This document shows, piece after piece, positions 7,310 through 35,031 of a stretch of 64,000 nt of DNA (its first letter is position 1; every line of letters begins with the position of its first letter). The position numbers and the translations under genes were made by a program. The notes under the pieces are model-generated. The model was not told where the DNA came from and did no database searches. It saw nothing but the letters and a program-made list of their open reading frames with translations. Source of the stretch: an uncultured bacterium (GTDB lineage Bacteria > Verrucomicrobiota > Kiritimatiellia > RFP12 > UBA1067); contig CADCOC010000035.1 in NCBI GenBank assembly GCA_902802945.1, positions 1 to 64,000 of the forward strand. The letters run 5' to 3'.

Positions 7310-8584
7310 TTAGGCCTTTTTGGCAGAGCCCTCAGCCACCTCTAACATGGCGGTCAGTCCTCCTATTTCGTCGAAATAGGACTTGACCGACGGGGAGTCG
7401 GCGAACTCGTCTCCCTTCTCTTCCCCAAAAGTCTGATTGGCTGAGATCATACGCTGAATCTCGTCCGGCATCGTCGCCATCGCGTTCTGCAAGTCCACCG
7501 ACGAGGAATTATAGCCGATCAGCCCGACCTCATTCATCTCGTCCACGATCTGCATCGTCGTCTCCAGCGCGGTTAAGTAATCGACCTGGGCAATGAGCGA
7601 ACCAGCGAGACTGGCGTGCATCTTGGCGCGCTGCGCACACTGGTCGGACTGCCGCATGAACAGCTTCCTGTCCGCAGGAAGAGTATCGGGCGAGAACGTC
7701 GTAGTGCGGTAATCCAGCGCCAACGATTCCTCCGCCTCGGCCTGATTTTCGTATTCCTTGGCCTTGCACTTTAACTCCCAAATCTTGTTGCGGACGTCAG
7801 AGGTCTTGATCTGCGCCGGCTTGATGCCGAGCGCAGCCATGAGTTTTTTGCCGACAGATTCGTTTCCCATCATATCGCTACCTTCCCGCTTACGCAAAGG
7901 GGCTCGGAACATCTGCTTAACAACCTCAGACGTCTTGAGTTTGATCTTCGCGAGCACTTCGTTTGCGTCATCCTGGTCATTCTTGGCCAACTTGGTGCAG
8001 TATTCGTCGTACAACGCGCTCAACTCGGCCGTCAGATTCTCGGTCTCATCGCCGTCGGCTGCCTCGGAGATGGCCGTGCCGTCTTCACCGAACGAGTCCT
8101 CCAGACCGTCGATCTCGGCCATCTCGTAGGATCCATCGCCGCCAATCGCCGACATCTGGCGAGCGAACAACTCAACGCTCATGTCTCTCGGCAACTGCCT
8201 GTCGCTGAAGACATCCATGTAGAAAGACTTGAGCATCTTGATCCGCTCGGCCACCCCGCAGATACCATTGAGCATGTTGAGCGCCGAAGAAAGCGCATTC
8301 GCGCGCTTCGCCGCAATCACGCCGCGCTGGAGCGAAAGCCCGCGGGCGACTGGGGATCGGGCGACATTCGCCTCCACAGACACGGCGTCGCGATACTCAT
8401 TTGTAGCCTCAGTCAGTTCCCGTTCCCACACGTCCGCGAGATGCTGCGTCGCGCGGAGTCTTGACACCATAGTTGACAAGTCAAGGTCTTTGATCGGCTT
8501 CTTCTGGACGTCCAGTATCCATCCGAATGCATCTGAGATGATTTCCATTCTTTTACCTTCTTCCTTTTTTGATTTCTTGAACAT
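7310..8584 (-). CDS. Helical coiled-coil protein, possible tandem ESCRT-III-like protein
   Basis: 424 residues from the ATG at 8584, chosen because GAAGGAGG lies just upstream. The frame is open for 19 more codons, but without a ribosome site. No known catalytic motif. It is almost wholly alpha-helical, with a basic start (MFKKSKKEEGKRM) and two helix-rich halves (about 30-150 and 235-400) separated by an acidic linker (about 155-200). Each half has the charged, methionine-rich heptad pattern seen in the four small ESCRT-III-like proteins at 25.5-31.7 kb. The second half is DYLTALETTMQIVDEMNEVG-like. The assignment is inference from pattern, not a measured match. Alternative: an unrelated coiled-coil scaffold. 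It lies between caspase genes. Confidence 0.5.
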   Translation of the reverse strand: MFKKSKKEEGKRMEIISDAFGWILDVQKKPIKDLDLSTMVSRLRATQHLADVWERELTEATNEYRDAVSVEANVARSPVARGLSLQRGVIAAKRANALSSALNMLNGICGVAERIKMLKSFYMDVFSDRQLPRDMSVELFARQMSAIGGDGSYEMAEIDGLEDSFGEDGTAISEAADGDETENLTAELSALYDEYCTKLAKNDQDDANEVLAKIKLKTSEVVKQMFRAPLRKREGSDMMGNESVGKKLMAALGIKPAQIKTSDVRNKIWELKCKAKEYENQAEAEESLALDYRTTTFSPDTLPADRKLFMRQSDQCAQRAKMHASLAGSLIAQVDYLTALETTMQIVDEMNEVGLIGYNSSSVDLQNAMATMPDEIQRMISANQTFGEEKGDEFADSPSVKSYFDEIGGLTAMLEVAEGSAKKA

Positions 8585-8597
8585 TCCTTTGCCTCCT

Positions 8598-8732
8598 TCA
8601 CAATTCGCAAGCCGGGGGGCAAGGCGACTCCTTGCGCGCATCCGCTACGCAGAACCGCAGGTCTCTTATGGCATGATCTTCGTAATGATCACGGTCGATG
8701 TGCATGGAGTGTTTTTTCCGGGTGTTTTCCAT
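8598..8732 (-). pseudogene. Remnant of a caspase gene (N-terminus only)
   Basis: A 44-codon frame with a good ribosome site (GAAGGAAGG) and its own TATACTAT promoter box (8778-8783). From residue 8 it reads HSMHIDRDHYEDHAIRDLRF, close to HSLHIGIDRYNDPQIRDLPF at the start of the intact caspase at 12384-13103. It stops just before the ribosome site of the next gene, and both catalytic residues are missing. It is a truncated paralogue that may now act only as a leader peptide for the gene at 7310-8584. Confidence 0.65.
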
Positions 8733-8777
8733 AAAATGATTCCTTCCTTCAAGAGATGCCTGTTGCATGACAGGAAT

Positions 8778-8783
8778 AGTATA
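8778..8783 (-). promoter_or_regulatory. -10 element (TATACT) with GTCATGCA motif
   Basis: Minus-strand TTATACTATTCCTGTCATGCAACA, the third copy of the caspase-upstream element. It now drives the caspase remnant and the downstream coiled-coil gene. Confidence 0.5.
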
Positions 8784-8849
8784 ACAAATTTTCGCAGTTC
8801 GTGGCTCACGGTGCCGGCTTGTTCCGATTGGTCGCGCTTCGTAGAACGG

Positions 8850-9200
8850 CAGGCACCCGAACCAGACGGGCCCCGTCCCGATGAAGAAATTGGCTATCTG
8901 CCCGAAAAAGGTCCGGCGGCTCTCATGCGTCACGTGGCCGAGTTCGTTCCCCGACAGACGGAACGGGACGAACTCGACGATTCGCGTTCCGGTGAGGATG
9001 CATCCAAGTGCATGCCCCGTCTCATGGCAGATGACACCGGGTGCCACGAAATAGACATACGCACGCCCAAAGCGGCCATACCCATCCCCGCGAAGCCGCT
9101 GGCTTGCAAACCACATCATCGTCGCCAGCGCGAACACGCCGCCGAAGAGAATGACGATCTCGAACATCGCCCGCTCTATTGCTGAAGGAAGATAGGCCAT
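8850..9200 (-). pseudogene. Truncated membrane metalloprotease (HETGH, M50-like)
   Basis: The first ~117 residues match the intact protein at 15913-16719, including the zinc site HETGH and the stretch ending TGPVWFGC. Homology stops abruptly at about 8850. The following bases include CGTAGAACGGCAGGCA, resembling the end of the hairpin repeats at 0.2 kb. The frame then runs on, by chance, through the promoter of the caspase remnant. About 150 C-terminal residues with most membrane segments are lost, so it is probably non-functional. It starts 36 nt downstream of the end of the 1046-residue kinase-caspase gene... that is, just before it in transcription order is that gene's stop at 9236. Confidence 0.6.
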
Positions 9201-9235
9201 GTTCCCTCTATTTGTGCGTTCCGTACCGCATGAGA

Positions 9236-18119: not shown

Positions 18120-18147
18120 ATTCAGGTCCTTTCCGCTCTGGCGACAA

Positions 18148-19053
18148 TCAGTCATTTACCCATCCCGTGCCATTGCAATGCGGACACGGATGCCTTCCAT
18201 GATGTTTCGGCCTGTCCACTTGCGTTCCGCCATACAGGGTGTAGTCATGACATTCGTCGCTCGATATGCCAATGTCGTTATTAATTGATTGAGGCCGACC
18301 AAACAGGCGTCCCAATATGCGTTCAAATAATTGCCGAAGGACACTGGCTGTTTTCGGACGTTTTTGGCAATCTTCCCCAGAAAAATTTCTTTTATTCCGT
18401 CCTTCATCTTGGACATTCTTCGTCCACCCCTCAATCTCCCTGCGGGTCTCCTCGCTGAATTCATTCGAGACATCTTCGCCAGAAGAAGGTGTTGGCGTCC
18501 TATCCACCTTCCGCTCTATCTTCACCTCCACTATCGGCTTTACGATGTCATTGCCAATATATACAATGACATCGCCGTCCTCGTGTGCGATCCAATCTCC
18601 AATCGATGAAAGAGCCGCTGGATCCACTGGTTCGGGACGTCCTTCTGAAGGCTGTACGCCACCTGACGCTCCGCCGCCGACATATTCGAAATTCGGAGGA
18701 AACTTGTTCGCTCGGGCATCTTCGCGGGGAATCGGCCGGACGAATACCTCATGCTGGAATATCAGCCTGAAGTCAATGTTCGCCGCCTCGTATTTCGGAA
18801 CGACGCCTATGACATGGTAATCAACGGTGCGCATATTGGAATCATAATTCGCCGCTTTGAGATGTCTGGCGAAAAAAACCCGGTCGCCATGCGTGAACAC
18901 GCAGGCTATCGGACGGATTTCGGCATCGTCGCCGGAAATCAGCCGTGCGTCAATCAATGACAAGTCCGTTTCCGAAAAGTGGCTTTTCGGCCAATGCCAC
19001 GAATAGCCTTGAAACGCCGTGTGAAAAGCCAAAGGTATTCTTATGCTGCTCAT
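18148..19053 (-). CDS. Probable GTPase-associated protein with C-terminal zinc knuckle
   Basis: 301 residues. The N-terminal region (1-110; FHTAFQGYSW, then a CVFTHGDRVFFARHL-type segment) is reminiscent of GTPase-associated proteins encoded next to DO-GTPases in conflict loci. I assign this mainly from context and a weak pattern. The middle is low-complexity and charged. The C-terminus ends in CPHCNGTG, half of a DnaJ-type zinc finger. Its stop overlaps the longer start of the DO-GTPase gene, and its start abuts the stop of the caspase at 19053-20348, so translation is probably coupled. Confidence 0.45.
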   Translation of the reverse strand: MSSIRIPLAFHTAFQGYSWHWPKSHFSETDLSLIDARLISGDDAEIRPIACVFTHGDRVFFARHLKAANYDSNMRTVDYHVIGVVPKYEAANIDFRLIFQHEVFVRPIPREDARANKFPPNFEYVGGGASGGVQPSEGRPEPVDPAALSSIGDWIAHEDGDVIVYIGNDIVKPIVEVKIERKVDRTPTPSSGEDVSNEFSEETRREIEGWTKNVQDEGRNKRNFSGEDCQKRPKTASVLRQLFERILGRLFGRPQSINNDIGISSDECHDYTLYGGTQVDRPKHHGRHPCPHCNGTGWVND

Positions 19054-21156: not shown

Positions 21157-22758
21157 CTACTCCTTCATGAGCTTCTGGGTGATGGCGTCAAATTCCGCCT
21201 TCATGGCCACGTCGTCGAACAATGCGATTTCGGGAAGCTTAAGCTCAAGAAGCGCCGCGAAATCAGTCATGTCGGAGACGGCCCGCGCCCCGAACGAGCT
21301 GGCAATGTCGACGGACTCCCAGAAGCTGAGCGCGATTTCGTGGCGCTTTTCCGTGGCGGACAGCTTTTCCCGTATGATCTCCTCGTGGCGCTTGAGAATT
21401 GCCAAATACGCCTGCGCGGCCTTCAATGTTTTTTCGTTCGTGCCGGCAGCATGGAGATACGCCTTCTTCTCCTCTTCGGAACGGCCTTCGGCGGCGGCCT
21501 TTGTCTCGTTGCCCTTCTTCGCAGCCTCTGCGTTCTTCGCGACATCGACGATACCGTCGCGCCAGATTCCTGTCGCGGCCTTGTCGAGATACTGGCGGAA
21601 GCATTCAGCCTGGACGTCCAGCATCACGATGTACGCGCCGTAGTAGCGCTTCGCCGCCTCCGCATTGCCCTTTTCGGCGTCGACTAGCCCCTTGAGGTTC
21701 TCCACAACGAAGCCGATGTTCTTCGCGACGATGGCGTTGTCGATGAGCGCTCCCAGGTCCACGGTGAGGAACGGCGAGTTTTCCGGGAGAGAGAGACCGA
21801 TTTCCTTGAGATCACGCCGCACTGTCGCAACTGCTTCGGCGCGAGAGGTTTCCAGCGCAGCGAGCTCCGCCTCCGCCTTGGCGATCTTAGCGTCAAGCTT
21901 TTCGGACCGATCCGGATCAAGACCACGTTTCTCGCGAAGTTCCGAGAGATCCTTTTTCGCCGACGCGATTTTCGCATCCAGTTTCGTGACGCGCGCCAGT
22001 ACGGCGCGTGAATCGACGGTCAGCAGGTCATCCCGAAGTTTGGCAATCTGCTCCTTGATCATCTTGGAGGCAACGACCTTTCTGGCGCCAACCTTGCCGT
22101 TGGCCATGGCACGCCTATCCATGTCGACAAGCGCATCCCAGGCGGACACGATCTTTTCGGTACTGCGTTTGATCGGCTCCCAACGCTCAACGACGTTCTT
22201 GCGCAGGTACTCGCCCAGACGCCCGAAGTACTCATCGAACACAGACCCGGTATTTGCCAACAAGTAGAACGACAGCAGCGCAACCGCCATGCCTACCATG
22301 ATCACTCGCGAAAAAATCGTCACCTTCCGCGGGAGTAAAGCTGCCCGCAACAGTCCCAAGATGGTCCAGCCCACCCAGAAGGCAGCCGAATTAATATGCG
22401 CGCTGCCGCTGAACAGCGGACCGCAAAAGGTGAGGCTAAGGAACAACGGGAACAGCATGGTGGAACCGAACGCCACCCATGGACGCATGGAATCCGCGCA
22501 TTCAGTGTCGATTATCTTCATGAAACCTGGAAACCACACCACATATAATGCAACCGACATGGCAAATGCCTTGCAATATAGCAGCCACATTTCTTCCGGC
22601 GTCCAGACGGCCCACAGAAGATAGCGGGCGGCAAAGGCGAGTACGACTAGCAGGATTCCCTTTCCCAAAGCCCTCATGCTGGAGTTCATTATGGCAAGTG
22701 CCGCCGCTGGAAGCGCGATGGCCGAGACCAGAAATACTATAAACAAGAATGTCTGCAT
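21157..22758 (-). CDS. Polytopic membrane protein with cytoplasmic coiled coil and MIM-like tail
   Basis: 533 residues. About five or six hydrophobic helices occupy 1-175. A long charged coiled coil (about 205-330) and further helices follow. The last stretch LFDDVAMKAEFDAITQKL is almost the same as the end of the next upstream protein. Paralogue of 22828-24192: both share a YYGAYIVMLDVQAECFRQYL-type helix. I infer a membrane anchor for the ESCRT-III-like subunits, with a C-terminal helix that could dock on the MIT domains of the AAA ATPases. No family is recognised with certainty. Confidence 0.55.
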   Translation of the reverse strand: MQTFLFIVFLVSAIALPAAALAIMNSSMRALGKGILLVVLAFAARYLLWAVWTPEEMWLLYCKAFAMSVALYVVWFPGFMKIIDTECADSMRPWVAFGSTMLFPLFLSLTFCGPLFSGSAHINSAAFWVGWTILGLLRAALLPRKVTIFSRVIMVGMAVALLSFYLLANTGSVFDEYFGRLGEYLRKNVVERWEPIKRSTEKIVSAWDALVDMDRRAMANGKVGARKVVASKMIKEQIAKLRDDLLTVDSRAVLARVTKLDAKIASAKKDLSELREKRGLDPDRSEKLDAKIAKAEAELAALETSRAEAVATVRRDLKEIGLSLPENSPFLTVDLGALIDNAIVAKNIGFVVENLKGLVDAEKGNAEAAKRYYGAYIVMLDVQAECFRQYLDKAATGIWRDGIVDVAKNAEAAKKGNETKAAAEGRSEEEKKAYLHAAGTNEKTLKAAQAYLAILKRHEEIIREKLSATEKRHEIALSFWESVDIASSFGARAVSDMTDFAALLELKLPEIALFDDVAMKAEFDAITQKLMKE

Positions 22759-22827
22759 GTTTTCTCCTTTGCTTTCTTAGGACGGACGGAATGCCTGTCC
22801 TGACACTTGTCCAGACGATATTTCCCG

Positions 22828-24192
22828 CTATTCCTTGCGAAGTTTTCGCGTGATTGCGTCGAACTCGGCCTGAAGCGCCGAATCGTCAAAGAGCAGAAGC
22901 GGCGGGAGTTCAAGCGAGAGGAGCGCCTCGAAAGCCTCGTGGCTCGTCTTCACGATTGCCTTGAGATCGCTGGCGAGGCTAACGGTGTTCCAGCTGCTCT
23001 GCGCGACTTCGCGGACACGCTCAGCCTCGCGGAGTTTTGTGCGGATTATATCCTCGTACTGCTTCAAAAGCCCCAGATAGGCATTCGCCGCCTCCACCGT
23101 CTTCTTGTTCATCGCTGCGTTTTTCCTGAAAATCTCGCGTTCATGGTCGGTGAAGCGCGTCTGGGCCGCATTGGCGGTGTCGGAATGAATCGCCGCCTCT
23201 GCGCCCTGGAGGATTTCGTTGATTCCCTTGCGCCACTCGCCATCTTCGCTCTTTTCAAGATACTGCCTGAAGCCCTCGGTCTGCACGTCGATCATGACTA
23301 GATACATTCCGAAGTAGCGCTTAGCGGTGGTCAGGTCCTTTGCGTCAAGGAAGCGGCCAAGGTTTTCGACCACGACGGCGATGTCTTTCGCCACGACGGC
23401 GTTGTCGATGAGCGTTTCGACATTCACGGGGAATATGCAGCGCTCCGCAGCGTTACCGGGGATGTTCAACCCGATGCCCCGCAGATTTTCCATCACCTTC
23501 GCCGCCTGATTGGCGCGTTCTGCCTCAAGCTTCGCCTTCCTGTCCTTGATCTCTTTGATGCGCGCGTCATAAGTCTCGGACTCGTCCGGATGGCGGACGC
23601 GCTCGCCCTCAGCCTTTACTATTTCCTTTTGCGTCTCTGCGATTCGCTTGTCGAGTTCGTCAACTGCGGCGAGTACGTCATGGCAATCGACGGGGAGGAG
23701 CAACTCACGCACCCGGTCCAGCTGCTTGCGCTCGCTTTTGCTCGGTGGCTTGGGCCTCGCGCCCGGCTTTGCGTTTTCTTGGAATCGTTCTACCACGTTG
23801 CCGCACTCGGCCACGATCTCCTCCCAGCGCTTAGCCACATTGTCCCGGATGTCGGCGACGATGTTGCCGGAATACTCCACGCCGCCTTTGGCAAAGTAGA
23901 TGTTCACGGCGACTATGACGACGACGCTCGCCAGAAGCGCCGCCAGCGCAAGGATTACCGACGGGGGCCGCAGCTGTAGCGGGCGCACGCCGGCGTTCAG
24001 CAAGACGAAACCGACAAATACAAGAAGCTGATTCTTCTCCGGCAAGATGAATGCCAGGATCGTCGCCAGAACGATGCCGCAGAGTATCACCTTTCCAAGA
24101 GAGGAGAGCCGCGCGCGCACGATGATGGAAATCGTGTGTGCCGTGATAAGCAAACCAGCTATCCAAGCCAGTGCATAGAGTACCATAGTCAT
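22828..24192 (-). CDS. Polytopic membrane protein with cytoplasmic coiled coil and MIM-like tail (paralogue)
   Basis: 454 residues. Four hydrophobic helices (about 5-25, 34-50, 55-72, 77-100) are followed by a helical cytoplasmic part. This holds a coiled coil (about 160-250), a YFGMYLVMIDVQTEGFRQYL helix, and the tail LFDDSALQAEFDAITRKL. The tail follows the spacing of MIT-interacting helices (E..F..I..KL), though it is not a textbook MIM1. It directly follows a Vps4-like ATPase gene (33 nt), consistent with a physical link between the two. Confidence 0.55.
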   Translation of the reverse strand: MTMVLYALAWIAGLLITAHTISIIVRARLSSLGKVILCGIVLATILAFILPEKNQLLVFVGFVLLNAGVRPLQLRPPSVILALAALLASVVVIVAVNIYFAKGGVEYSGNIVADIRDNVAKRWEEIVAECGNVVERFQENAKPGARPKPPSKSERKQLDRVRELLLPVDCHDVLAAVDELDKRIAETQKEIVKAEGERVRHPDESETYDARIKEIKDRKAKLEAERANQAAKVMENLRGIGLNIPGNAAERCIFPVNVETLIDNAVVAKDIAVVVENLGRFLDAKDLTTAKRYFGMYLVMIDVQTEGFRQYLEKSEDGEWRKGINEILQGAEAAIHSDTANAAQTRFTDHEREIFRKNAAMNKKTVEAANAYLGLLKQYEDIIRTKLREAERVREVAQSSWNTVSLASDLKAIVKTSHEAFEALLSLELPPLLLFDDSALQAEFDAITRKLRKE

Positions 24193-24225: not shown

Positions 24226-25539
24226 TTATTTTTGTCCAGGCCTATATGCATGGTTATCCATCCACAACCGGAAGTCGTTCATGTCTTTCGGGGAAATCGA
24301 AGCTTTCACGATCTTGAAAGCTTGCTCAAAATCTTCTTGGGTCAAAGGGCGCTCTTTTTGAACTTGTCCCTTAATCTCGTCAATGGACTTCCAAGTGGAG
24401 ATTCCAGGGTTCATTTCCTCCTGCATCGATTGAACGGCGTTGGCAACAAGATTCTGCAAATCTCGTCCAGAAAAGCCCGCCGTTCTCTCATCTGCCGAAA
24501 GCCAATCTAACAAAACAGGGGTTGCGAGTTGATAACGCCTCAACTGCTTTGCGAGAATCTGCTTCCTTCCTTCAGCATCAGCAGCACCGACGAGGACAAT
24601 GTGTCCACCAAAACGCGAAAGCAGGGCGACATCAAGAGACCACGGGACATTTGTTGCAGCAACCGTAAGTACGAATGGCGGTTCGCTCTTTCCATCTCCT
24701 TTTGTCTTGATACCGTCCAGTTCGGCAAGTAGGGCACCAAATCCTGCGCCACCACCGCCGTTCTCTCGCGAGGGAGAGATGCAGTCGACCTCGTCAATGA
24801 ACACGAGAGAAGGAGCCTTGAATCTAGCCGACTCATATAGTAAGCCTATCGCCTTTTCCTCCATTCCCTGGTAGTGTCCTCTGACTCCCGAAAGTGAGAC
24901 ATCAAAAAACGTGCCGGCCCCACTTATGGAGTTCGCAAGCGCGGATACGAGAAAAGTCTTGCCTGTTCCCGGAGGGCCTATCATGAGAACCTTACCAGCA
25001 CCATCCGGTCTTGAACCGTCAGGACGGCGCATTACAGATTGTGCCAGTATCTTCTTCAGATCTTTCACAAGATCGTCCTGCCCACCGACGTCATCCCATG
25101 TTACACTAGTAGTCCTGAGGAATCCATCAATTTGAGCTATCAGCGTCGCCCCAACAGGATCCTCGGCAAGCTGCGCATGAAGACTGTCTTCAGGCCATTC
25201 GGCATCAATTTCGCAGTCTTCGTCATCCTTGGATTCACATGATTCACCTTCCTCGTTGCGATTCCAATCTCTTCCAACCCTCTTCGAACCGTCAGACGGC
25301 GATGCTACGGCTGATGATTTCAATACCTTTGCATTGCACTTGCCGGCCTGTTCCAGTGCCTTATCAGATTCCGCAAGGCGTTCGGAACGTGCCGAAGCAG
25401 ATGTTGCAACGCCCGCAGCCGCAATCCAGGCCTTGGCAAGAGACTCATAGGCCGAGGCCGCCTCGGCCCACTTCTTGCCTGCGTGAAGGGCTTCGGCCTT
25501 TTCGCGGCAAGACATGACCTGTTTAAGGATTTCGTTCAT
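24226..25539 (-). CDS. Vps4/katanin-like AAA ATPase with N-terminal MIT-like domain
   Basis: 437 residues from the second ATG (25539), better spaced from AGAAAGG than the first (25548). N-terminal three-helix region (1-74) with the MIT pattern (GKKWAEAASAYESLAKAW against Vps4 KNYEEALRLYQHAVEYF). Acidic linker 75-140. AAA core 145-375: Walker A GPPGTGKT (188-195), Walker B LVFIDEVD (245-252), ATNVPW sensor (295-300), SRF arginine finger (Arg309), pore loop GHYQG. The end (413-432, SISPKDMNDFRLWMDNH) resembles the C-terminal helix of the katanin/spastin/Vps4 clade. Inferred role: ATP-driven remodelling of the neighbouring ESCRT-III-like polymers. Sequence comparison is from memory only. Confidence 0.75.
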   Translation of the reverse strand: MNEILKQVMSCREKAEALHAGKKWAEAASAYESLAKAWIAAAGVATSASARSERLAESDKALEQAGKCNAKVLKSSAVASPSDGSKRVGRDWNRNEEGESCESKDDEDCEIDAEWPEDSLHAQLAEDPVGATLIAQIDGFLRTTSVTWDDVGGQDDLVKDLKKILAQSVMRRPDGSRPDGAGKVLMIGPPGTGKTFLVSALANSISGAGTFFDVSLSGVRGHYQGMEEKAIGLLYESARFKAPSLVFIDEVDCISPSRENGGGGAGFGALLAELDGIKTKGDGKSEPPFVLTVAATNVPWSLDVALLSRFGGHIVLVGAADAEGRKQILAKQLRRYQLATPVLLDWLSADERTAGFSGRDLQNLVANAVQSMQEEMNPGISTWKSIDEIKGQVQKERPLTQEDFEQAFKIVKASISPKDMNDFRLWMDNHAYRPGQK

Positions 25540-25559
25540 TGAAAACATCCTTTCTCAAA

Positions 25560-26198
25560 TCAAACCTCTGCGGGCATGAGCAGAGATTCGCTCTTCTTCT
25601 GGATTTCCGCCTGAATTTGCGCCTTCTTGGCAGAGTCCTGTTCCGCGTCGTACTTGGCGTAGAGCGCCATCAGTTCGTCCTGTCCATCTGACTTGTCCTG
25701 AGACAGCATGTTATCAAACTGTTGGACCGTAACATCCATCACATGCTTTAGATTTTGGCACTCTCTGACCATTGGTCCCAGCACCGCCTCCGTTTCCTGA
25801 AGTTCCTTCATGATCTCCTGAATGTCCATCTTGCCGACACCGGCGATGTTGCTCTGGGAAATCGTCTCGGAAAGTTCCATAAACGTTTCGGCTTTTTCAA
25901 GAGTCTCAAGGACGCTACCCAACTGATTCGCGAACCCAAGGGAGTTCTTAGCTTCCCTGATGCACCTCTGGTGCTCGGAGATGAGTTTAGACCTCTGTGC
26001 CGCGCTGATGCCGGGCTGAAAGGTCTTCTGGAGGGCGGTCTGGGCCTTCTTCTCGGCCATGGCGGCGTCGCGGTTGCGCATCTCCATGTTCTGGGATGTT
26101 TCGATAATCCGTCTGTGGATATCGTCAAGCGAGAGCGGTTTCTTCTTGGAAGATTCCGGCTCAACGAAAAGTTTCTTGATAGAAGTCAAAATTGACAT
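25560..26198 (-). CDS. ESCRT-III-like helical protein
   Basis: 212 residues. Basic, amphipathic start (MSILTSIKKLFVEP), a long first helical pair (28-95) and a methionine- and glutamate-rich third region (100-150; KMDIQEIMKELQETEAVLG). An acidic tail carries charged helices. Length, basic N-half, acidic C-half and helix layout match ESCRT-III (Snf7/CHMP) subunits. Alternatives are a PspA/Vipp1-type or unrelated coiled-coil protein. It lies 20 nt upstream of the Vps4-like ATPase gene. Confidence 0.55.
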   Translation of the reverse strand: MSILTSIKKLFVEPESSKKKPLSLDDIHRRIIETSQNMEMRNRDAAMAEKKAQTALQKTFQPGISAAQRSKLISEHQRCIREAKNSLGFANQLGSVLETLEKAETFMELSETISQSNIAGVGKMDIQEIMKELQETEAVLGPMVRECQNLKHVMDVTVQQFDNMLSQDKSDGQDELMALYAKYDAEQDSAKKAQIQAEIQKKSESLLMPAEV

Positions 26199-26237: not shown

Positions 26238-26891
26238 CTAGGCAAGAACAAGTGTGGAACCACCCGTCATAATCGCGGAAATCTGTTCCTGAACCTTCTT
26301 CGCCCCCGCGATGTCGCCCTTGATCGCGGTCTTCATCGTCAGCGTCCCCGTGCCGGACTTCTCGATGTTCCAGGGCGACGTGAACGCGGTGCTGCTCAGC
26401 GTGGCGGCGGACGCCGTGGGCGCGTAGAGCACGTCGTGCGGCCCATCTAACGTCACAATACCACTCAGCATCTCCTTGTTTTTCGCCATAAGTGTGTTCA
26501 TCTCTTCCCCAAGTGCCCTGAACTGCTCGGCGTTGCCCATTGCGGACTCCATTTGCGCCTTATGCTCACGAAGTGCCAGTGCTTGATCAAGGACGGAGGT
26601 GAATGTTTCAATCATGTTGCAGAATTTCCCGATCATCGCCATCCGCTGCGAGATAGACTTTGCTCGGCGCATCATCTGGACGCGCATGAGGGGGGTCCGC
26701 CTCAGGTTCTCCTCCACCGAGGACGATTTCTTCCATTCGGCCTCTAGTTTGCGCCACTGGAAGTCCAACGACGACCGCAGCGACTTGAATGCGCTTATAC
26801 GTGACTGGATGTCGGACTTCTCCGTAGAGCCATCTCCGGCACCTTGGACAAGCGTTTTGATGTCCGACAACATGTTTTTGAAGAATCCCAT
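26238..26891 (-). CDS. ESCRT-III-like helical protein
   Basis: 217 residues. It starts MGFFKNMLSDIKTLV, an amphipathic helix, like the paralogues at 28290 and 30981. A basic helical hairpin (30-95, with RRTPLMRVQMMRRAKSISQR) and a methionine-rich helix (100-150) follow. The C-terminal 60 residues are Ser/Thr/Ala-rich and less helical, and end KVQEQISAIMTGG. It fits the ESCRT-III layout in its first 150 residues. The tail differs and may be an autoinhibitory or binding element. Confidence 0.55.
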   Translation of the reverse strand: MGFFKNMLSDIKTLVQGAGDGSTEKSDIQSRISAFKSLRSSLDFQWRKLEAEWKKSSSVEENLRRTPLMRVQMMRRAKSISQRMAMIGKFCNMIETFTSVLDQALALREHKAQMESAMGNAEQFRALGEEMNTLMAKNKEMLSGIVTLDGPHDVLYAPTASAATLSSTAFTSPWNIEKSGTGTLTMKTAIKGDIAGAKKVQEQISAIMTGGSTLVLA

Positions 26892-26970: not shown

Positions 26971-28281
26971 TCATTCGTCATCTCCCGAATCATCAGCGTC
27001 CGCGTCGCCCGACGGGTTAGACAGCGAGAAGGCGCGGTTCCGGCGGACGATGTCGGGGTCCTTTGAAGACACCGGTACAAGCGCCTTGATGGACGCATCG
27101 AAATCGGCCTTCGTGACAGATTCCACCCGGTCCCATTCGGGGCTGCCTGGATTCAGGCCTTCACGGCGTTTGACCCAACGACGCCCGGCGCGCATCGCGG
27201 CCTCGTCGCAGACACCGCCGCCGTCGCCATGGTGCAACTCTGCGCCGCTGTAGCCCTCGGTGCGCTCCACGATGTCGTCGATGGAGACATCAGGCGCAAG
27301 CGGGACGTCCTTCAGCGCCGCTTCGACTATGGCGCGGCGCGTCTCGGCATCGGGCAGCCCCACGTGGACGGCAAGGCCAATGCGTCCGCTGCGGACAACC
27401 GCGCTGTCGATCATCCACGGGCGGTTCGTCGCGAGGATTACGAAGATTTGCGCGTCTCGCTTCGTCGCGAAGCCGTCCAGCTCCGCCAGGAACTGCTCGA
27501 CGATGCAAATCTTCTGGTTGCCGCGCTTGCGGAGAATGCTCTCGCATTCGTCGAGGAACACGACGCACTTCTTGTGCGAGTACGCCTCCTCGAAAAGCCG
27601 AGATACGTTCTTCTCGCTCTCGCCGACGTACTTGTCCTTCATCTCGCTCATCTTGCGGTAGAGGAACGGGAGGCCGAGTTCTCCGGCGACGGCGCGCGCG
27701 AACATCGTCTTGCCCGTGCCCGGCGGCCCGTAAAGGAGCAGACCCTTGCCATTCTTGATCTTCAGCGTCTTGTAGATGTCGGGGTGGCGGACAGGATTCA
27801 CGAGCGCATCCATCACGGCCTGCTTGGCCCCATCCAGGCCTTTAACATCGGCAAGGGTAATGCCTGTCGGGTTATTCTGTCCGGATTCGGCCGTGGGCTT
27901 GGGCTGATCACCTTGTTGAGCATCCTGTGTGTCCGTACGCTTTTGGGCTTTCGCAGCCGCTTCAGACTCAAAGGAAAGCTTCTGGGGGATTGTCGGCTGA
28001 GCGGCAAGACCCTTTGCCCCCACGCCAGAACCAGCGGTAGTGGTTCGCGCATGGGCGGGAGCTTTTGCCGCCGCTTCTAATCCGATTCTCTCCCAGCGGT
28101 CGCAGAGGGATGTCCAGCGGTCCTCCTCCGCTGCCGAGACAAGGCCTGACGCGAGAATCGCGCGATAGGTCGAAACTAGCGCTTGAGCGGCTTTGGCAAC
28201 GGCAGCCCAGTCGCCGACATCCGCCGCCCGCTGGGCGGCTGACTTCAAGTCTTCTTCGCGTTGGAGCAATTCGTGGAGCAT
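26971..28281 (-). CDS. Second Vps4-like AAA ATPase with N-terminal MIT-like domain
   Basis: 436 residues. Helical MIT-like N-terminus (1-74; GDWAAVAKAAQALVSTY), a Ala/Thr/Gln-rich linker (75-140), AAA core 143-375 with Walker A GPPGTGKT (185-192), Walker B VVFLDECES (Asp245, Glu246), pore loop YVG (218-220) and TNRPW sensor. The segment after YSGAEL carries an extra HHGDGGG where most members run straight into CDEAA. The tail is acidic (GDADADDSGDDE). Flanked by ESCRT-III-like genes on both sides. Two different ATPases in one cluster suggest separate recruiting roles or a mixed hexamer. Confidence 0.75.
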   Translation of the reverse strand: MLHELLQREEDLKSAAQRAADVGDWAAVAKAAQALVSTYRAILASGLVSAAEEDRWTSLCDRWERIGLEAAAKAPAHARTTTAGSGVGAKGLAAQPTIPQKLSFESEAAAKAQKRTDTQDAQQGDQPKPTAESGQNNPTGITLADVKGLDGAKQAVMDALVNPVRHPDIYKTLKIKNGKGLLLYGPPGTGKTMFARAVAGELGLPFLYRKMSEMKDKYVGESEKNVSRLFEEAYSHKKCVVFLDECESILRKRGNQKICIVEQFLAELDGFATKRDAQIFVILATNRPWMIDSAVVRSGRIGLAVHVGLPDAETRRAIVEAALKDVPLAPDVSIDDIVERTEGYSGAELHHGDGGGVCDEAAMRAGRRWVKRREGLNPGSPEWDRVESVTKADFDASIKALVPVSSKDPDIVRRNRAFSLSNPSGDADADDSGDDE

Positions 28282-28289
28282 GGCTTTTC

Positions 28290-28898
28290 CTACAGCTTTG
28301 CAAGAAGTTCCTCTAGGTGATTCACGGCTGCGGTATCCTTATCGCCCGCCAGCTTGGCAATCATGTTGTCGATGGCCGACGTCTTCACCCCAGAAACCGA
28401 TTCCTCGACCGAGACCATCTCGCCCAACGTCGCATCAAGCGCGCCAAGCATCTGGTCCATGAGCTGGTCCGCCATCTGGGCGTTATGGATGCCCTTCTGA
28501 AGATCCTGCTGCGCCTTGGCGACGTCAACAGATGAAATCGTGTTGCCCATTGCACTGCTCACCTCCGAAAGAACCCCGCAGAACTCCGTGTAGCCCTCCA
28601 TTTGGTCGGACTTTGTCGCGAAAAGGCGAACAGCATGGAGCATCCGCTGCGCGCGACGGCGCATGGCAATCGTAAGCGCTATGGAGTTCTTGATCGGACC
28701 TAGCATCGTCTCATCCCCTGTCCGCTTCGCATCGACAGCTTGGACCAAGTAGTCATGAAGATAACGATCTTGCTTCTTGATCTCAAGCGAGAACCTGCTT
28801 TGAAGGGCTCCCAGCTTGATTTTCCGTTGCATCGCCACTTCGGCAGGGTCGGGCCTCTTTTCAAAGATGCCAACAAGTTTCTTGAAGAATCCAGCCAT
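28290..28898 (-). CDS. ESCRT-III-like protein with C-terminal MIM1-like helix
   Basis: 202 residues and the clearest ESCRT-III candidate. It opens with an amphipathic helix MAGFFKKLVGIFEKR. A basic helical hairpin (24-98) and a segment SEVSSAMGNTISSVDVAKAQ (111-130) follow the CHMP pattern of alpha-3/alpha-4. A helix with QMADQLMDQMLGAL precedes the final NHLEELLAKL (193-202), which fits the LxxLLxxL spacing of MIM1 motifs that bind MIT domains. The gene lies 8 nt upstream of the MIT-AAA gene. The fold call is inference from pattern and needs a profile or structure comparison. Confidence 0.65.
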   Translation of the reverse strand: MAGFFKKLVGIFEKRPDPAEVAMQRKIKLGALQSRFSLEIKKQDRYLHDYLVQAVDAKRTGDETMLGPIKNSIALTIAMRRRAQRMLHAVRLFATKSDQMEGYTEFCGVLSEVSSAMGNTISSVDVAKAQQDLQKGIHNAQMADQLMDQMLGALDATLGEMVSVEESVSGVKTSAIDNMIAKLAGDKDTAAVNHLEELLAKL

Positions 28899-29476
28899 TA
28901 TAACACCTCCGTTTCAAGCAATCCGTATGTCCAGTCATCTTCGGGGATGTCCAGCAACGACGCTACCGTCTCCTCCACGGCACCAAAGCCCCCGCGGGTG
29001 GCGAAATCAGTACCAGCATTAAGCACTGCGGACTCCGACAACTCAATGGGGTTGCGAGTGACTATGACGAGCAGACGTTCCTTGCGGCCGCTCTCCGCCG
29101 TTGTCGGCCCAGAAACCAGAAAATCGGGAATTGGCAACAACTCCCCAGGCGCCGCGTATGTCTTGCCAGCCTCGATGTGATTGTCCGTCGTTGAAAGTTC
29201 CTTACACGGAAAGAGCTTTGCGAAGCGCCCGCTCGTACCGAAGTCAAACAATGTCAAGTACCCATCCATGTCAGACCGTAGTTCAAGCCGAAGCTTGTCA
29301 CCCACGGCAATTGAGTTAGATGGGCGTTGCGCTGGATTCACACATGGCGAATTTTTCTTCTGCAACGAAGATTTCGCCGTCATAGGTACCAAGGCACGTT
29401 CCATACCGTCCTCTTTCACGACCGTCCAGCTCATTTGCAGAGTCGGCCTCTTATTGAATGTTACAACCATATTCAT
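28898..29476 (-). CDS. DUF4384-type domain protein
   Basis: 192 residues. The core has the DUF4384 pattern: SIAVGDKLRLELRSDMDGYL (about 55-75), then LTLFDFGTSG, LFPCKE and an AGKTYAAPGE turn. DUF4384 domains are beta-sandwich modules often found beside or fused to caspases and kinases in bacterial signalling proteins, and a recognition role is likely. It shares one base with the ESCRT-III-like gene downstream, implying translational coupling. Confidence 0.65.
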   Translation of the reverse strand: MNMVVTFNKRPTLQMSWTVVKEDGMERALVPMTAKSSLQKKNSPCVNPAQRPSNSIAVGDKLRLELRSDMDGYLTLFDFGTSGRFAKLFPCKELSTTDNHIEAGKTYAAPGELLPIPDFLVSGPTTAESGRKERLLVIVTRNPIELSESAVLNAGTDFATRGGFGAVEETVASLLDIPEDDWTYGLLETEVL

Positions 29477-29495: not shown

Positions 29496-30965
29496 TCACG
29501 GAAGAATCAAATAAGAATTTACATCTGCCGCCCATTGGCACTTATTCATGCCCGTCAGTTTCGCCACCAAATCGGTTGCCTCCGCAGGGGAAAGCGCTTC
29601 TCCAAGTTTAGGCAATGTCTTACTCAACAACGGGTTGTCCGTAACAAGCGCCACCAGATGGTCAGTTCCAGATGAGGCTGATTCACGAAGCCCCGAAAGC
29701 ATTTGGCAAGACTCGTCAGCGACAAGCATCCGCTCTCCTTGTGCTATCCTCACGTCTTCTGGAAAATCCCGATTGGGAAGAAGCGGAACAATCTCATTAC
29801 ACTCAGAGACATTCAGTATTGTCAGGTATCCTTCGTGACGCTCACAGAAAATCGTCGATGAGAGAGTCTCGTTGTAGTGCAACACAGGCGTTTTCGCCGT
29901 AATTGGCTCAAGACTACGATCCCTAACGCCGATTGTACGTGTAGAGAACGAGGGAGCATTCTTTGCGAGAGTTACGCCTCCTTCTTTGCTTTTATCCTTT
30001 ACCAACGCAAGAAGACGCAACCCCGATTCCGCCCGCTTGGCATCCTTCAAAAGTTCCACAAAGGAACCTGACCCGGACTTAGCGACAGTATCTCCAAGGA
30101 CATTGGAAATCATCTCAAATGCTGCGAATGCAGCTTCAATGTCTCCGCACTGAAGTTTATTCTTCTGGGCATCTAATTCGGCAATCTTGAGTTCATGTAT
30201 TTTCTGCGCGAGTTCTTCTTCGCGTTTTGCATCGTTGTCGCGTTTGACCTGAGCAGCCTGCTCTTGTTTTTTGATGCGATCTTGCTCCGCTTTTACTAAG
30301 CTGTCAGTATTCGCGTTTTGGCTTTTGATTGCATAATCTCGCTCAGGGCTGACGAACTTCACGGACCTGACGACAAACTCAACGACAGCACCTTTGTCGC
30401 CATCCACAAAAAATGGCGTGCCATCTTTCGCGGACAGGGCATTTGTAAAGACCATCTCGGTCAGATTTCGTTCGCTTGCCCAATCCTCCATGTCGACTTT
30501 AAGGTCCTTTAATTTAAGCACCTCCATCGACGCATTGAGTATTTCGTCAAGCAACAGATTCTTTGGCACTGTGCCTAATGCCTTGACAAATGCGCTAGTC
30601 GTGAAAGGTGCTACTTTTGCATCCGAATAGTATTGCTCAAGAAACGCCTTCTGCTTCTTAATTTTCGCTTTACCGCCAATTTCCAGATACCAGTGAAAAC
30701 CGTCTTTCTCTTGGCCAAGTGGAATCCTAAAGAACAAGTCAAATGGATCGCACTGAACCGCAAAAAAACGGATGCCGTCTTTGCTTGGCAGATTCTTCGG
30801 ATCCACCTCCTCTGCACAACCATTCAAGCAAATGCCGAAAATTTTCTCCCCGTCGACAACGGCACCATCGAGGACATTCCTCGATTCCTTTGAAAACAGA
30901 CCCTTTTTGACCATCTCAGGCTTGACGGTCAACTTGCGAATGAGTGTTTGAAGCGAATCTGGCAT
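29496..30965 (-). CDS. Coiled-coil protein with DUF4384-like C-terminus
   Basis: 489 residues. The N-terminal beta-rich region (1-215; FFAVQCDPFDLFFRIPLG, then VVEFVVRSVKFV) is followed by a charged coiled coil (225-280). A helical stretch (285-340) leads to a C-terminal part (350-489) resembling DUF4384 (EGYLTILNVSECNEIVPLLP). The order beta-domain then coiled coil recalls SPFH/Band 7 membrane-scaffold proteins, but I cannot confirm this. It lies 15 nt from the small ESCRT-III-like gene upstream. Confidence 0.45.
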   Translation of the reverse strand: MPDSLQTLIRKLTVKPEMVKKGLFSKESRNVLDGAVVDGEKIFGICLNGCAEEVDPKNLPSKDGIRFFAVQCDPFDLFFRIPLGQEKDGFHWYLEIGGKAKIKKQKAFLEQYYSDAKVAPFTTSAFVKALGTVPKNLLLDEILNASMEVLKLKDLKVDMEDWASERNLTEMVFTNALSAKDGTPFFVDGDKGAVVEFVVRSVKFVSPERDYAIKSQNANTDSLVKAEQDRIKKQEQAAQVKRDNDAKREEELAQKIHELKIAELDAQKNKLQCGDIEAAFAAFEMISNVLGDTVAKSGSGSFVELLKDAKRAESGLRLLALVKDKSKEGGVTLAKNAPSFSTRTIGVRDRSLEPITAKTPVLHYNETLSSTIFCERHEGYLTILNVSECNEIVPLLPNRDFPEDVRIAQGERMLVADESCQMLSGLRESASSGTDHLVALVTDNPLLSKTLPKLGEALSPAEATDLVAKLTGMNKCQWAADVNSYLILP

Positions 30966-30980
30966 AGCGCGGAATCCTCT

Positions 30981-31655
30981 TCAGCTTTGGCTCGCAGAGA
31001 TGGTATGCTGTGGCCGTTCGGTCACATGTGACGGCTGGGCTGGAGACTGCTGCGGGGCGTCTTGAGGCTTCGTCGCTGCCTTCCTTGCAGCCAATTTGGC
31101 AAGGACCTTTTCACGATTGACATCTGCCGTGGCAGTTGACGACATCGTTCCGTCAAGCCTCTCGCCAGCTTCCGTCACACCATATAACCCTGCGTCAGCC
31201 GACTCCCCTTCACGGGCAGTCTCATCAATTATTTTCGCAATATCATCCATCGACTTCCCAGCGTCCCTCGCCGCAATAAGACGTTCCAGCGTCCTTTTCA
31301 TGATCTGACGGAGCTTCTCGTTGTCGCCCCAAGCCTTATTCAAACCATCGACACGCTTCCGGAACTCGGTCAAAACCTCCTCATTCGTCATAAGCGTTCC
31401 CATGACCATGTCTTTTTCAAGCCCATCCGGCAGAGATTCGTATTCGTCCATGAGCCGCTTGTATTCCAAATCCTTTTGCCGAATTTCCTCGCGGAGCTTC
31501 TCTCGTTCAGCAGCAATGGTCTTGCCCTTGCTCTGCAAGTCCATCACCGTATTCCTAATTTCGGCTATTTTTCTGTCAACCTCACTCAGCTGAGGTTCTG
31601 CTTGCTTGGCGTCGTCGGAACTCCCGCCAAAGAGTTTCTTTAAAAAACATGCCAT
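30981..31655 (-). CDS. ESCRT-III-like helical protein
   Basis: 224 residues. Amphipathic start MACFLKKLFGG, a long charged helical pair (23-95), a helix-rich middle (100-150) and a short helix REKVLAKLAARKA (about 181-193) that could serve as a MIT-interacting element. The end is Pro/Gln/Ser-rich. It has the highest coiled-coil content of the set, so a generic coiled coil is a real alternative. First of the ESCRT-III-like genes in transcription order. Confidence 0.5.
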   Translation of the reverse strand: MACFLKKLFGGSSDDAKQAEPQLSEVDRKIAEIRNTVMDLQSKGKTIAAEREKLREEIRQKDLEYKRLMDEYESLPDGLEKDMVMGTLMTNEEVLTEFRKRVDGLNKAWGDNEKLRQIMKRTLERLIAARDAGKSMDDIAKIIDETAREGESADAGLYGVTEAGERLDGTMSSTATADVNREKVLAKLAARKAATKPQDAPQQSPAQPSHVTERPQHTISASQS

Positions 31656-31691: not shown

Positions 31692-33647
31692 TCAAACGAA
31701 AATGCGGTCGGATTCCTTGCCGACGGAACGGATTTCCTCTTTACCACCAAATCCGTGCCCGAACCAGAACTTGCGGGGCTCCTTCTCTTGAAGCGCGAGG
31801 ACAGCCGCTCGTACCCGACAGTCCAGGTCAATAACAGTTGAAAAATCCGGTACGCGCGCCAGCAAAGACTGCTTCAATTCCGACATTGACACGACGGCAC
31901 AGTCATCAAGAGAGAAAATTCCGACAATCGTCTCTCGGACGACGGGTTCTAATCGCGCCTCACGTTCTTGCAACACTCTCTCCGCGCGCTCTTTCCGCAT
32001 TTTTTCCTCGACCGCTAACGTATCCGCGAATTCTTGTTTAAATATCGTGCGCAATTTCGCGCGGTTCGGCGGCGTGTCGCGCAGGACTTCAAAAGGTTTG
32101 CGAGAGTCGGGAACGAGAACAGACGTTCCTGAGCGCAACAGGATTCCGTCCATGTCGCGAACTGGCCTGTCAAGTACGGCGGAATGCTCTGCCAGCCAGG
32201 CTCCAAACGCATCCGCAGGGTCTGGCGCAGCGACAGACGGCGTCCCCGCGCTAACCGATGCCGCAGGCAAACCCGCACCAATTGTGAATCCTTCCGAAAC
32301 CGCATGCTGTGAAGACTTTCCGAACCACGTCGGCCGTCCGGCAGCCGTTGCGCCCAAGGGAACGCTCCCACCAATGGATAGTGGCGTGCTGCCCCCTGCC
32401 GCCACGCTGGCATCAGGAAACTCGGACATGACAACCCCTTCCCGACCGTGAGCAACAATATAGGCGTATGGAATCAACGCATAACCCGGCATTTCCGGCG
32501 ATTCCGGTGCCCATTCCGTATCGCTCCAGCTGTTCCGCGCGATGAAGTAGCCGCCCCCTTGATAGGATGTATCGTCCACATAGCCGGCAAGACAGAGCGC
32601 ATGCCCCCCACTAATCTTATCAAGCTTCACCACGAGTTCAACGCCGTCCTCATACGCTTTGTAATCTCTGACTAAGAGATTACATCCAAAAACGGACGAG
32701 CCAACATACTCAATGGTCTCCTTTATTTTATCGCCGGCAATCTGCATCGCGACAACTTCCGCTCCCTCGGATTCGGGATCGACGCCGTTTGCCACCATGA
32801 TTTTTTCGACAAGCCCCCGAGGTGGCGGCATGACTTTTATATGCCAAAGCAACTTTGGCACAGGAATCACGCCAGTCCTGTGAACCTCGTCATCATCCCA
32901 GTCCGACGTGACAAGCACACCGGTATAGACCGGGAATCCAGCCGACAACGCCTGCTTGAATTGAAGCACGGAACCGTTGGAAAGGGTCCGCCAGTGACGG
33001 AAACGGTATTTCTGCGCAGAGGCCAGCTTGCGCTGAAGGGCCATGCCCTGTCCCTCGTTATCTGGATCCTCGACGTAGTTCCAGCTTTCGGGGTTGTAGT
33101 GCCATTCGGAGAGAGGGCAGATGCCATATTCCTCTATGGCATGAATGGCGTCGAGCGTGAAGGCCCCGTCCGTGAGGCTCTCAACCTTCCCCGGAGTGAC
33201 AAGCTTCGTGAAGTGAAAGAGCGACTGTTCCGAGAGTTCGACCTTTCTACCCAGCATGTACTCGCAGAGCGCGACAAGAGCAAAGGCAAAGCAAGCCCCG
33301 CGCTTGCTCTGGTTGCGAACAGGGAAAAAGCCGTCCATCAAGCGCACTGCCGGGGGAAGCCCAGCGAGTCCCGAGAAGTTGACTTCCTCGAATAAGGGAA
33401 CCAAAAGGCAATTGCAAAGCGGTGCATGTTCGGCTCCCTCCGGGACATTGCCTAGCACCATGCGCAGCATCTCCTGCCAGATGTCATCGCGGCTTATGGG
33501 CAGCTGAGTACCGCCGTCACCGCCGTCTGGTCCATCGGCTGAAAGACGGAACGCCGTTTGACCTAGTTGAAGTGCTGCAAGGGGAGTTCCCCCTTTCATG
33601 AGGGAACGAATGTCTAGCTTGCCTTCCTTTACGCTCTTAAAATGCAT
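31692..33647 (-). CDS. Papain-like cysteine protease (C1 family) with long C-terminal extension
   Basis: 651 residues. The protease region has Gln113 and Cys119 in RNQSKRGACFAFA, His349 in SGGHALCLAGY and Asn372 in ARNSWSD, the full papain set. No signal peptide, so it acts in the cytoplasm. The C-terminal part (about 440-651) holds a Gly/Ala/Ser-rich linker, a charged helical stretch and a final domain rich in charged residues that I do not recognise. Third gene after the sigma factor. It could activate caspases or process the neighbouring coiled-coil proteins (inference). Confidence 0.75.
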   Translation of the reverse strand: MHFKSVKEGKLDIRSLMKGGTPLAALQLGQTAFRLSADGPDGGDGGTQLPISRDDIWQEMLRMVLGNVPEGAEHAPLCNCLLVPLFEEVNFSGLAGLPPAVRLMDGFFPVRNQSKRGACFAFALVALCEYMLGRKVELSEQSLFHFTKLVTPGKVESLTDGAFTLDAIHAIEEYGICPLSEWHYNPESWNYVEDPDNEGQGMALQRKLASAQKYRFRHWRTLSNGSVLQFKQALSAGFPVYTGVLVTSDWDDDEVHRTGVIPVPKLLWHIKVMPPPRGLVEKIMVANGVDPESEGAEVVAMQIAGDKIKETIEYVGSSVFGCNLLVRDYKAYEDGVELVVKLDKISGGHALCLAGYVDDTSYQGGGYFIARNSWSDTEWAPESPEMPGYALIPYAYIVAHGREGVVMSEFPDASVAAGGSTPLSIGGSVPLGATAAGRPTWFGKSSQHAVSEGFTIGAGLPAASVSAGTPSVAAPDPADAFGAWLAEHSAVLDRPVRDMDGILLRSGTSVLVPDSRKPFEVLRDTPPNRAKLRTIFKQEFADTLAVEEKMRKERAERVLQEREARLEPVVRETIVGIFSLDDCAVVSMSELKQSLLARVPDFSTVIDLDCRVRAAVLALQEKEPRKFWFGHGFGGKEEIRSVGKESDRIFV

Positions 33648-34334: not shown

Positions 34335-34979
34335 TCAGCCTCTCTTACAAAGTTTTTTTCGAATATCTGAAATGACCCTACTGACGATGCAGCCGACATT
34401 TCCCGTTGTCAGACCCAGCTCCCCGGCTATCTCCTTTTCCGTAAAGCCATTCGCCCACATCCAGACAACCCGCTGCTTCTTTCTTTCGATTTTGCCAAGC
34501 TCCCTCTTAACATACGCAAAAAAGTCCGTGAGTTCGACCTGCATTTCGGGAGAAAGCGATGGTGTAGAGGACATCAGAAGTATCTCAGCTCCATGCGCCT
34601 CCCAGAATGTCGACACCCCGTCTGCTCCATATTCCGTCGCATCCCCAGCAACTTCAATGCGGAAGTTCCGCATCTGAGTCGTGAAATGGCGGTACGCGTC
34701 GTTCATGCAGTTTTTTAGGATCGTCCAGCACAAGGCATTGAAGTCGTCGATTTTCACTTCCACCGAATCACGGAAGATCGGAAGAAACTTGTCGTGTATG
34801 AATGAGTCCCTCACATGTTCGACAAAACCAGGAGGACAGTCAGGAAATTTCCGCTTGACCTGCCGTTCGATCTGATCGTATTTCGTGAGGAGATACTTGC
34901 AGACAAGCTCAAAAGCCGCCTCATCATGATGTAGTGCCCTGTCGACAAGTTCAAGGTCAAAATCAAATAGACACGACAT
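34335..34979 (-). CDS. ECF-type RNA polymerase sigma factor
   Basis: 214 residues from the ATG at 34979, chosen for the AGAGGAAGG 6 nt upstream. An in-frame ATG at 35012 lacks such a site. A sigma-2-like helical region (about 10-95, including FNALCWTILKNCMNDAYRHF) and a C-terminal sigma-4-type helix-turn-helix (about 165-205; KEIAGELGLTTGNVGCIVSR) are present. First gene of the cluster, so it may activate the operon. Its own promoter is not evident, and only 52 nt separate it from the end of the EF-G gene, with no hairpin between. Confidence 0.75.
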   Translation of the reverse strand: MSCLFDFDLELVDRALHHDEAAFELVCKYLLTKYDQIERQVKRKFPDCPPGFVEHVRDSFIHDKFLPIFRDSVEVKIDDFNALCWTILKNCMNDAYRHFTTQMRNFRIEVAGDATEYGADGVSTFWEAHGAEILLMSSTPSLSPEMQVELTDFFAYVKRELGKIERKKQRVVWMWANGFTEKEIAGELGLTTGNVGCIVSRVISDIRKKLCKRG

Positions 34980-35031
34980 GCTAAACCTTCCTCTTTTTGT
35001 TTCTTCTTGCATTCATGATTCTACGAACTCC

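Follow-up and report, generated by a model that had tools for sequence, protein, structure and literature searches.

Background

ESCRT-III proteins perform membrane cutting in eukaryotes and archaea, and the locus described here raises the question whether a bacterial operon encodes a subunit of this type together with its own AAA ATPase. The window, which means the whole analysed stretch of DNA, comprises 64,000 nucleotides from the 5.8 Mb genome of a rumen bacterium (Kiritimatiellota), and among the loci found its closest named relative is a rumen Kiritimatiellae MAG. The original prediction took the gene at 28290-28898 for the clearest ESCRT-III candidate, having an amphipathic start, a basic hairpin and a MIM1-like tail and lying beside a MIT-AAA gene. 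That reading is partly upheld by our analysis: the predicted topology, the Foldseek ranking, the neighbouring ATPase and, above all, a Snf7 family occupying this operon slot in relatives outside the window favour it, while the word "clearest" and the MIM1 part are not supported. The gene product, P0001, probably belongs, as a divergent subunit, to a bacterial membrane module that resembles ESCRT-III/Vps4 and is connected with proteases of the caspase and papain types.

The P0001 gene and its orthologs

The gene and its parts are distributed as follows.

28290..28898, minus strand: P0001, ESCRT-III-like protein of 202 aa (ORF with ATG start and no internal stop; model; Foldseek)
28869..28895, minus strand: predicted a0, residues 2-10 (AGFFKKLVG), a short N-terminal helix of low pLDDT (AlphaFold2; helical moment)
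28548..28847, minus strand: predicted a1-a2 hairpin, residues 18-60 and 63-117, with the invariant G61 at its tip (AlphaFold2; ortholog alignment)
28422..28532, minus strand: predicted a3/a4, residues 123-159 (AlphaFold2)
28344..28382, minus strand: predicted a5, residues 173-185, inside TSAIDNMIAKLAGD (AlphaFold2)
28293..28322, minus strand: C-terminal NHLEELLAKL, residues 193-202, a hydrophobic LxxLLxxL and not a canonical MIM1 (motif test)

The reading frame is genuine and lies on the minus strand, which had been left unspecified before; its 202-residue product has syntenic orthologs, and the gene is not a chance one because it is conserved at the same position in two other genomes (40-42% identity over the full length). 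These orthologs were located via synteny by searching with the ATPases. They occur in a contig of Kiritimatiellae RGIG6996 (L072, genome G068) and in Victivallales RGIG3456 (L084), both of which have the order P0001, P0002, P0005-like, P0004-like and P0003-like ATPase with a caspase gene nearby. The start of P0001 overlaps the stop of P0007 by 1 nt and its end lies 8 nt from P0002, a spacing as in a translationally coupled operon; in relatives the gap between the gene of this slot and the ATPase is -4 to 35 nt. All the quoted sequence pieces were recovered in the protein, namely MAGFFKKLVGIFEKR at the start, SEVSSAMGNTISSVDVAKAQ at 111-130 and NHLEELLAKL at 193-202, and the basic element of the hairpin is MRRRAQR in helix 2. 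The amphipathic start is present as a sequence, but its helical moment is equalled by 13% of shuffles and so is not above chance.

Searching 59 relatives and 388 phylum genomes by sequence gave no further convincing member. P0001 matched neither Snf7 nor PspA (PspA_IM30) in Pfam and no ESCRT-III among PDB sequences. Its sole PDB sequence matches were to the phage coat protein 6n4v (2.7e-5, in two stretches; the related chain 1dwn at 0.13) and were judged spurious, coat proteins of this kind having a beta fold. An axonemal dynein match of the family profile (0.0024) was also rejected.

The Snf7 family in the same slot of relatives

Directly upstream of the P0002 relatives in L087 and L091 (Planctomycetota), L095 (Rhodobacteraceae MAG) and L073 (Kiritimatiellota) lies another family of about 215 residues, here called family B, whose hosts are Planctomycetota, other Verrucomicrobiota/Kiritimatiellota and one Rhodobacteraceae MAG. 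With a profile of four members, yeast Snf7 was the sole significant PDB match (8e-7). A larger profile of 26 members, found in 16 of the 388 phylum genomes, gave yeast Snf7 as the best match (8e-10), followed by Heimdall ESCRT-IIIB (1.8e-4) and CHMP3 (0.0075); it also matched a designed TPR-like chain over a 33-residue stretch (1.6e-6). Individually, 21 of the 26 members match Pfam Snf7 at E<=0.01, the member from L073 exceeds the Pfam cut-off (29.9 against 27.3 bits), and PspA is absent among the Pfam families matched. Judged by these sequence matches, family B is Snf7-type ESCRT-III. The clear ESCRT-III proteins occur in relatives and at other places of this genome; for P0001, having no Snf7 match of its own, the rank of clearest candidate is not supported. 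In the whole 5.8 Mb genome, the single ORF matching Snf7 at E<=1 is a family B member on contig C271 (L193). A second family B member of this genome, on contig C1 (L199), adjoins an AAA gene.

In four loci a single ORF encodes both the B-type domain and the ATPase, the former standing where the MIT-like domain would be.

L074:7720-9111: B-type/Snf7-type domain fused to an AAA core
L075:1256-2668: the same fusion
L076:7005-8417: the same fusion
L077:9455-10849: the same fusion

These fusions are a Rosetta-stone link of ESCRT-III to its ATPase in bacteria.

HHalign did not join the P0001 family with family B (0.6-0.7% probability). In a gapless profile comparison, the offset +1 was the best of 121 over residues 30-120 or 45-120, with permutation p of 0.009 and 0.002, respectively, hydrophobicity classes being kept, and it pairs the hairpin-tip G61 of P0001 with G60 of family B together with a common (D/E)FxGA motif. 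Since the region was picked after inspection and this offset is not the best over residues 14-160, the match is taken as modest support.

The neighbouring ATPase and its phylogeny

26971..28281, minus strand: P0002, AAA ATPase of 436 aa, 8 nt downstream of P0001 (Pfam AAA, 9.4e-36; model)
28057..28281, minus strand: MIT-like three-helix N-domain of P0002, residues 1-75 (model)
27007..27873, minus strand: AAA core of P0002, residues 137-425, with a family-specific GGGxC insertion in the lid (Pfam; structure comparison; alignment)

The model of P0002 consists of a three-helix bundle (2-21, 25-45 and 50-73, pLDDT about 90), a disordered linker (77-136) and the AAA core. Among structural matches of the core, archaeal Vps4 4d82 came first (Z 27.9, rmsd 2.2 over 264 residues), on a par with NVL and p97; by sequence, Cdc48/p97 came first. 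The claim of a MIT-AAA neighbour is thus borne out for the AAA domain and for a confidently predicted three-helix N-domain, but neither a profile nor any other sequence method recognised MIT in that domain. Its architecture and predicted bundle suggest a MIT-like identity. The MIT profile itself matched designed helical toroids and not MIT. A frameshift suspected in the lid was ruled out because orthologs have the same GGGxC insertion, and a PADLOC match of P0002 to IetA (6.8e-32), which covers the AAA core, was judged generic.

In the maximum-likelihood tree of the ATPases, the three P0001-linked ATPases group together (100/100) and are sister to the fused ATPases of L074-L077 (97/94), and both groups fall inside a clade whose remaining members are family B-linked (100/98). 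As is looked for in a Vps4, the relatives of P0002 are encoded beside ESCRT-III, with a Snf7-type gene directly upstream or fused. The tree contains no true Vps4 reference and its archaeal rows are mostly of the two-domain Cdc48 type, and therefore it cannot tell a Vps4 from a Cdc48 origin of P0002. From the nesting of the P0001-linked ATPases inside the family B-linked clade it follows that P0001 occupies the ESCRT-III slot; by position, P0001 is the ESCRT-III subunit of its operon, in a divergent form.

Predicted structure of P0001

The AlphaFold2 model of P0001 was built from an alignment of three sequences and is of moderate confidence (pLDDT 69). Helices are predicted at 2-10, 18-60, 63-117, 123-159, 166-170, 173-185 and 188-201, which is the ESCRT-III order of a0, long a1-a2 hairpin, a3/a4, a5 and tail helix. 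The a1-a2 hairpin, whose absence had been named as a reason to abandon the ESCRT-III reading, is predicted in the model, and the a5 region resembles SVEEMMANLE of the Snf7-type relatives. When the model was compared by Foldseek with 350,542 PDB chains, 15 of the 20 best rows belonged to the ESCRT-III superfamily. The names in this top 20 include Sulfolobus CdvB, CdvB2, Vipp1, CHMP2A(-CHMP3), CHMP1B and Loki CHMP4-7; probabilities for the CdvB/CHMP rows were mostly 0.85-1.0, and no E-value in this search was below 0.001. VIA-align placed BAR domains first at a Z of about 10, a value in the range of unrelated helical bundles and hence non-discriminating for long helical bundles, and gave Asgard ESCRT-IIIB a Z of 9.0 (rmsd 2.8 over 109 residues). 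Given these E-values, the BAR-first order and the non-discriminating Z, the fold evidence from the model is favourable, not conclusive.

The VIA-align order, along with the missing sequence link of P0001 to Snf7, would also suit a replacement of the Snf7-type subunit by a non-homologous protein, that is, a BAR-like or generic helical-hairpin scaffold which curves the membrane or tethers effectors and on which the AAA protein acts. We regard such a replacement as unlikely: the ESCRT-III superfamily comes first in the Foldseek ranking, the slot of P0001 and the ATPase phylogeny point the other way, and the gapless register aligns P0001 with the Snf7-type family.

The C-terminal tail and the MIM1 question

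The MIM1-like tail of the original prediction was not recovered. Compared with (D/E)xxLxxRLxxL, the C-terminus of P0001 fits neither the canonical nor the relaxed MIM1; it reads L-x-x-L-L-x-x-L with no acidic residue at -3 and no Arg. The LxxLLxxL core appears in 8.6% of shuffled P0001 tails, and the orthologs end differently, in EEVITQVLNGVKKVL and TEDTISKLINTTTN, so that the tail is weakly conserved. The a5-like AIDNMIAKLAGD is better conserved than NHLEELLAKL.

The tails of the companion family E, whose gene lies just upstream of family B in several loci, carry relaxed MIM1 motifs such as EISLEDRLREI (L095), EAELDSRLNAI (L073) and DDDFLKRLSDV (L191). Strict matches numbered 3 among 17 family E tails, where 0.13 were expected and 500 shuffle sets gave at most 2. 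The tail of P0006, the family E member of the window, does not fit the strict motif. In the Rhodobacteraceae MAG, the companion with EISLEDRLREI (L095:6600-7187) stands directly upstream of the Snf7-type and MIT-like AAA genes. The MIM1-like motifs of family E tails make it plausible that the module as a whole uses MIM-MIT coupling; a part of the P0001 tail in it is hypothetical. That NHLEELLAKL works as a MIM1 docking on the N-domain of P0002 seems quite unlikely to us, for its LxxLLxxL spacing, the predicted C-terminal helix and the motifs of the relatives' companion genes are countered by the lack of the acidic residue and the Arg, by the low conservation, by the frequency of the core in shuffled tails and by the better conservation of the a5-like element.

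The operon and its genomic setting

24226..25548, minus strand: P0003, second AAA ATPase (Pfam Vps4_C, PF09336, 22.0 bits, passing the cut-off of 21.3)
25560..26198, minus strand: P0004, helical protein of family D (ortholog comparison)
26238..26891, minus strand: P0005, helical protein of family C, conserved downstream of P0002 (synteny)
28898..29476, minus strand: P0007, DUF4384 protein, its stop overlapping the P0001 start by 1 nt (Pfam)
29496..30965, minus strand: P0008, coiled coil with a DUF4384-like C-terminal domain (Pfam, 16.3 bits, below the cut-off of 27)
30981..31655, minus strand: P0006, member of the companion helical family E (E 1.8e-5)
31692..33647, minus strand: P0009, papain-like protease (Peptidase_C1), a conserved part of the operon (Pfam; relatives' loci)
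7310..8641, minus strand: P0014, one ORF joining a family C with a family D domain, at a great distance from the main operon (family comparison)

A weak Snf7 match (16.4 bits) was obtained for the P0004 ortholog at L084:5355-5963. Matches of the family D profile to pentatricopeptide-repeat chains, over a short stretch, and weakly to VPS28 were set aside. The order papain-like protease, family E, ESCRT-III-like protein, ATPase and hydrophobic membrane protein, with DUF4384 genes nearby, is repeated in L185 and L194 and in part in L196 and L198; the hydrophobic protein, apparently multi-TM on ORF inspection, is conserved in the operon.

From 0.5 to 35 kb the window is a caspase island with at least four Pfam-confirmed caspase genes, three more having the same N-terminus, and with FGE-domain proteins, a kinase, a papain-like protease and helical genes; beyond 35 kb, ORF reading gives housekeeping-looking genes (EF-G, HtpG and similar). 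Caspase genes accompany the window, L072, L084, L095 and L191. DO-GTPase matches occur in L072 and, below cut-off, in L073 and the window, and, lying beside the module, they connect it with the conflict systems described by Kaur et al. 2020 (PMC7159879).

Several other features of the island were recorded. At 560-20666, seven genes share an N-terminus of the caspase type (MKR(K/H)(A/S)LxxG or a near variant); four of them were checked in Pfam, and the genes are variously fused to FGE-sulfatase, Sel1, kinase and HTH domains. The weak DO-GTPase2 match of the window (16857-19053; 16.3 bits, below cut-off) has a neighbour that is possibly a GAP1-like partner. Two paralogs at 21157-24192, adjoining P0003, combine hydrophobic segments at the N-terminus with a long helical part at the C-terminus, and Pfam gave this pair no convincing assignment. 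Closely similar membrane proteins are encoded at 8598-9299 and 15913-16719; the second has a weak Peptidase M50B match, and the first diverges from it in the C-terminal part. At the operon head, 34335-35012 encodes a sigma-factor-like protein with a weak HTH match, perhaps the regulator of the operon.

The proteases conserved in the operon and region, together with the resemblance of the AAA protein to p97/NVL, could also be read as a proteostasis or effector-release machine in which the AAA protein unfolds helical adaptors, licensing the caspases and the papain-like protease, and no membrane is remodelled. This we find unlikely, as the partner belongs to Snf7, a family of membrane filaments and not of substrate adaptors, and the hydrophobic, apparently multi-TM protein is conserved in the operon.

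Proposed mechanism and significance

For the favoured ESCRT-III/Vps4-like membrane module we infer the following course of action. P0001 would bind the inner membrane via its short N-terminal helix. Its a1-a2 hairpin and a5 would mediate polymerisation, both among P0001 copies and together with P0005, P0004 and perhaps P0006. Hexameric P0002, recruited through its MIT-like N-domain, would unfold P0001 or take it apart. In view of the papain-like protease in the operon and the many caspase genes around it, the module would most likely repair or remodel membrane, or hold and release effectors, in a protease-driven stress or conflict response. On the most economical view, a helical filament would sit on the membrane and be remodelled by the MIT-type AAA ATPase, its deployment following a protease signal of danger or damage.

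A wider proposal is offered tentatively, as something that may perhaps hold: Planctomycetota, Verrucomicrobiota/Kiritimatiellota and a few other bacteria would possess a complete machine of Snf7-type ESCRT-III and MIT-Vps4-like ATPase with MIM1-bearing companions, whose task would be the membrane side of caspase-linked immunity or programmed death and not division. If this is true, the machine would be a bacterial counterpart of ESCRT repair in pyroptosis. An operon uniting a Snf7-type protein, a MIT-type ATPase and proteases of the caspase and papain kinds would open three questions: by what route ESCRT-III acquired its ATPase partner, whether the partnership is ancient or reached bacteria by transfer, and whether a link of ESCRT-like repair to caspases existed outside eukaryotes.

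Comparison with known systems

The operon resembles eukaryotic and archaeal ESCRT-III with Vps4 (Snf7/CHMP, CdvB-CdvC) in the gene order of ESCRT-III followed by a MIT-type ATPase, in the predicted a0-a5 topology of P0001 and in the Snf7-family sequence in sister operons. It differs from them in that P0001 is divergent in sequence, has no canonical MIM1, is bacterial and is linked to caspase and papain-like proteases. With PspA/Vipp1, the bacterial members of the ESCRT-III superfamily, which have a membrane role in bacteria, P0001 shares, as predicted, the helical hairpin with an N-terminal helix; unlike them it has no PspA_IM30 match, family B matches Snf7 and not PspA, and a dedicated Vps4-like ATPase is present here. 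To our knowledge, PspA/Vipp1 systems usually have no dedicated Vps4 and are usually thought to work without it.

According to the comprehensive survey of Makarova et al. 2024 (PMC10936438), many ESCRT component homologs are identifiable in archaea and not in bacteria. No description of a Snf7-MIT-AAA-protease operon was found in the openly accessible journal papers that the search covered. The regions studied here have DO-GTPase, caspase and further effector-type genes in common with the DO-GTPase/caspase conflict systems (Kaur et al. 2020, PMC7159879); neither Snf7 nor Vps4 is named in the main text of Kaur et al. Ravi et al. 2024 (PMC11237479) described Vps4-like AAA proteins in bacteria, ACB74714.1 among them, and occasional Snf7 genes of bacteria that neighbour PspA or share an operon with AAA; next to the bacterial Vps4-like ATPase they reported snf7 to have given way to a TPR/6TM gene. 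Unlike in those systems, the Snf7-family gene here lies directly upstream of the ATPase or is fused to it, in the company of proteases.
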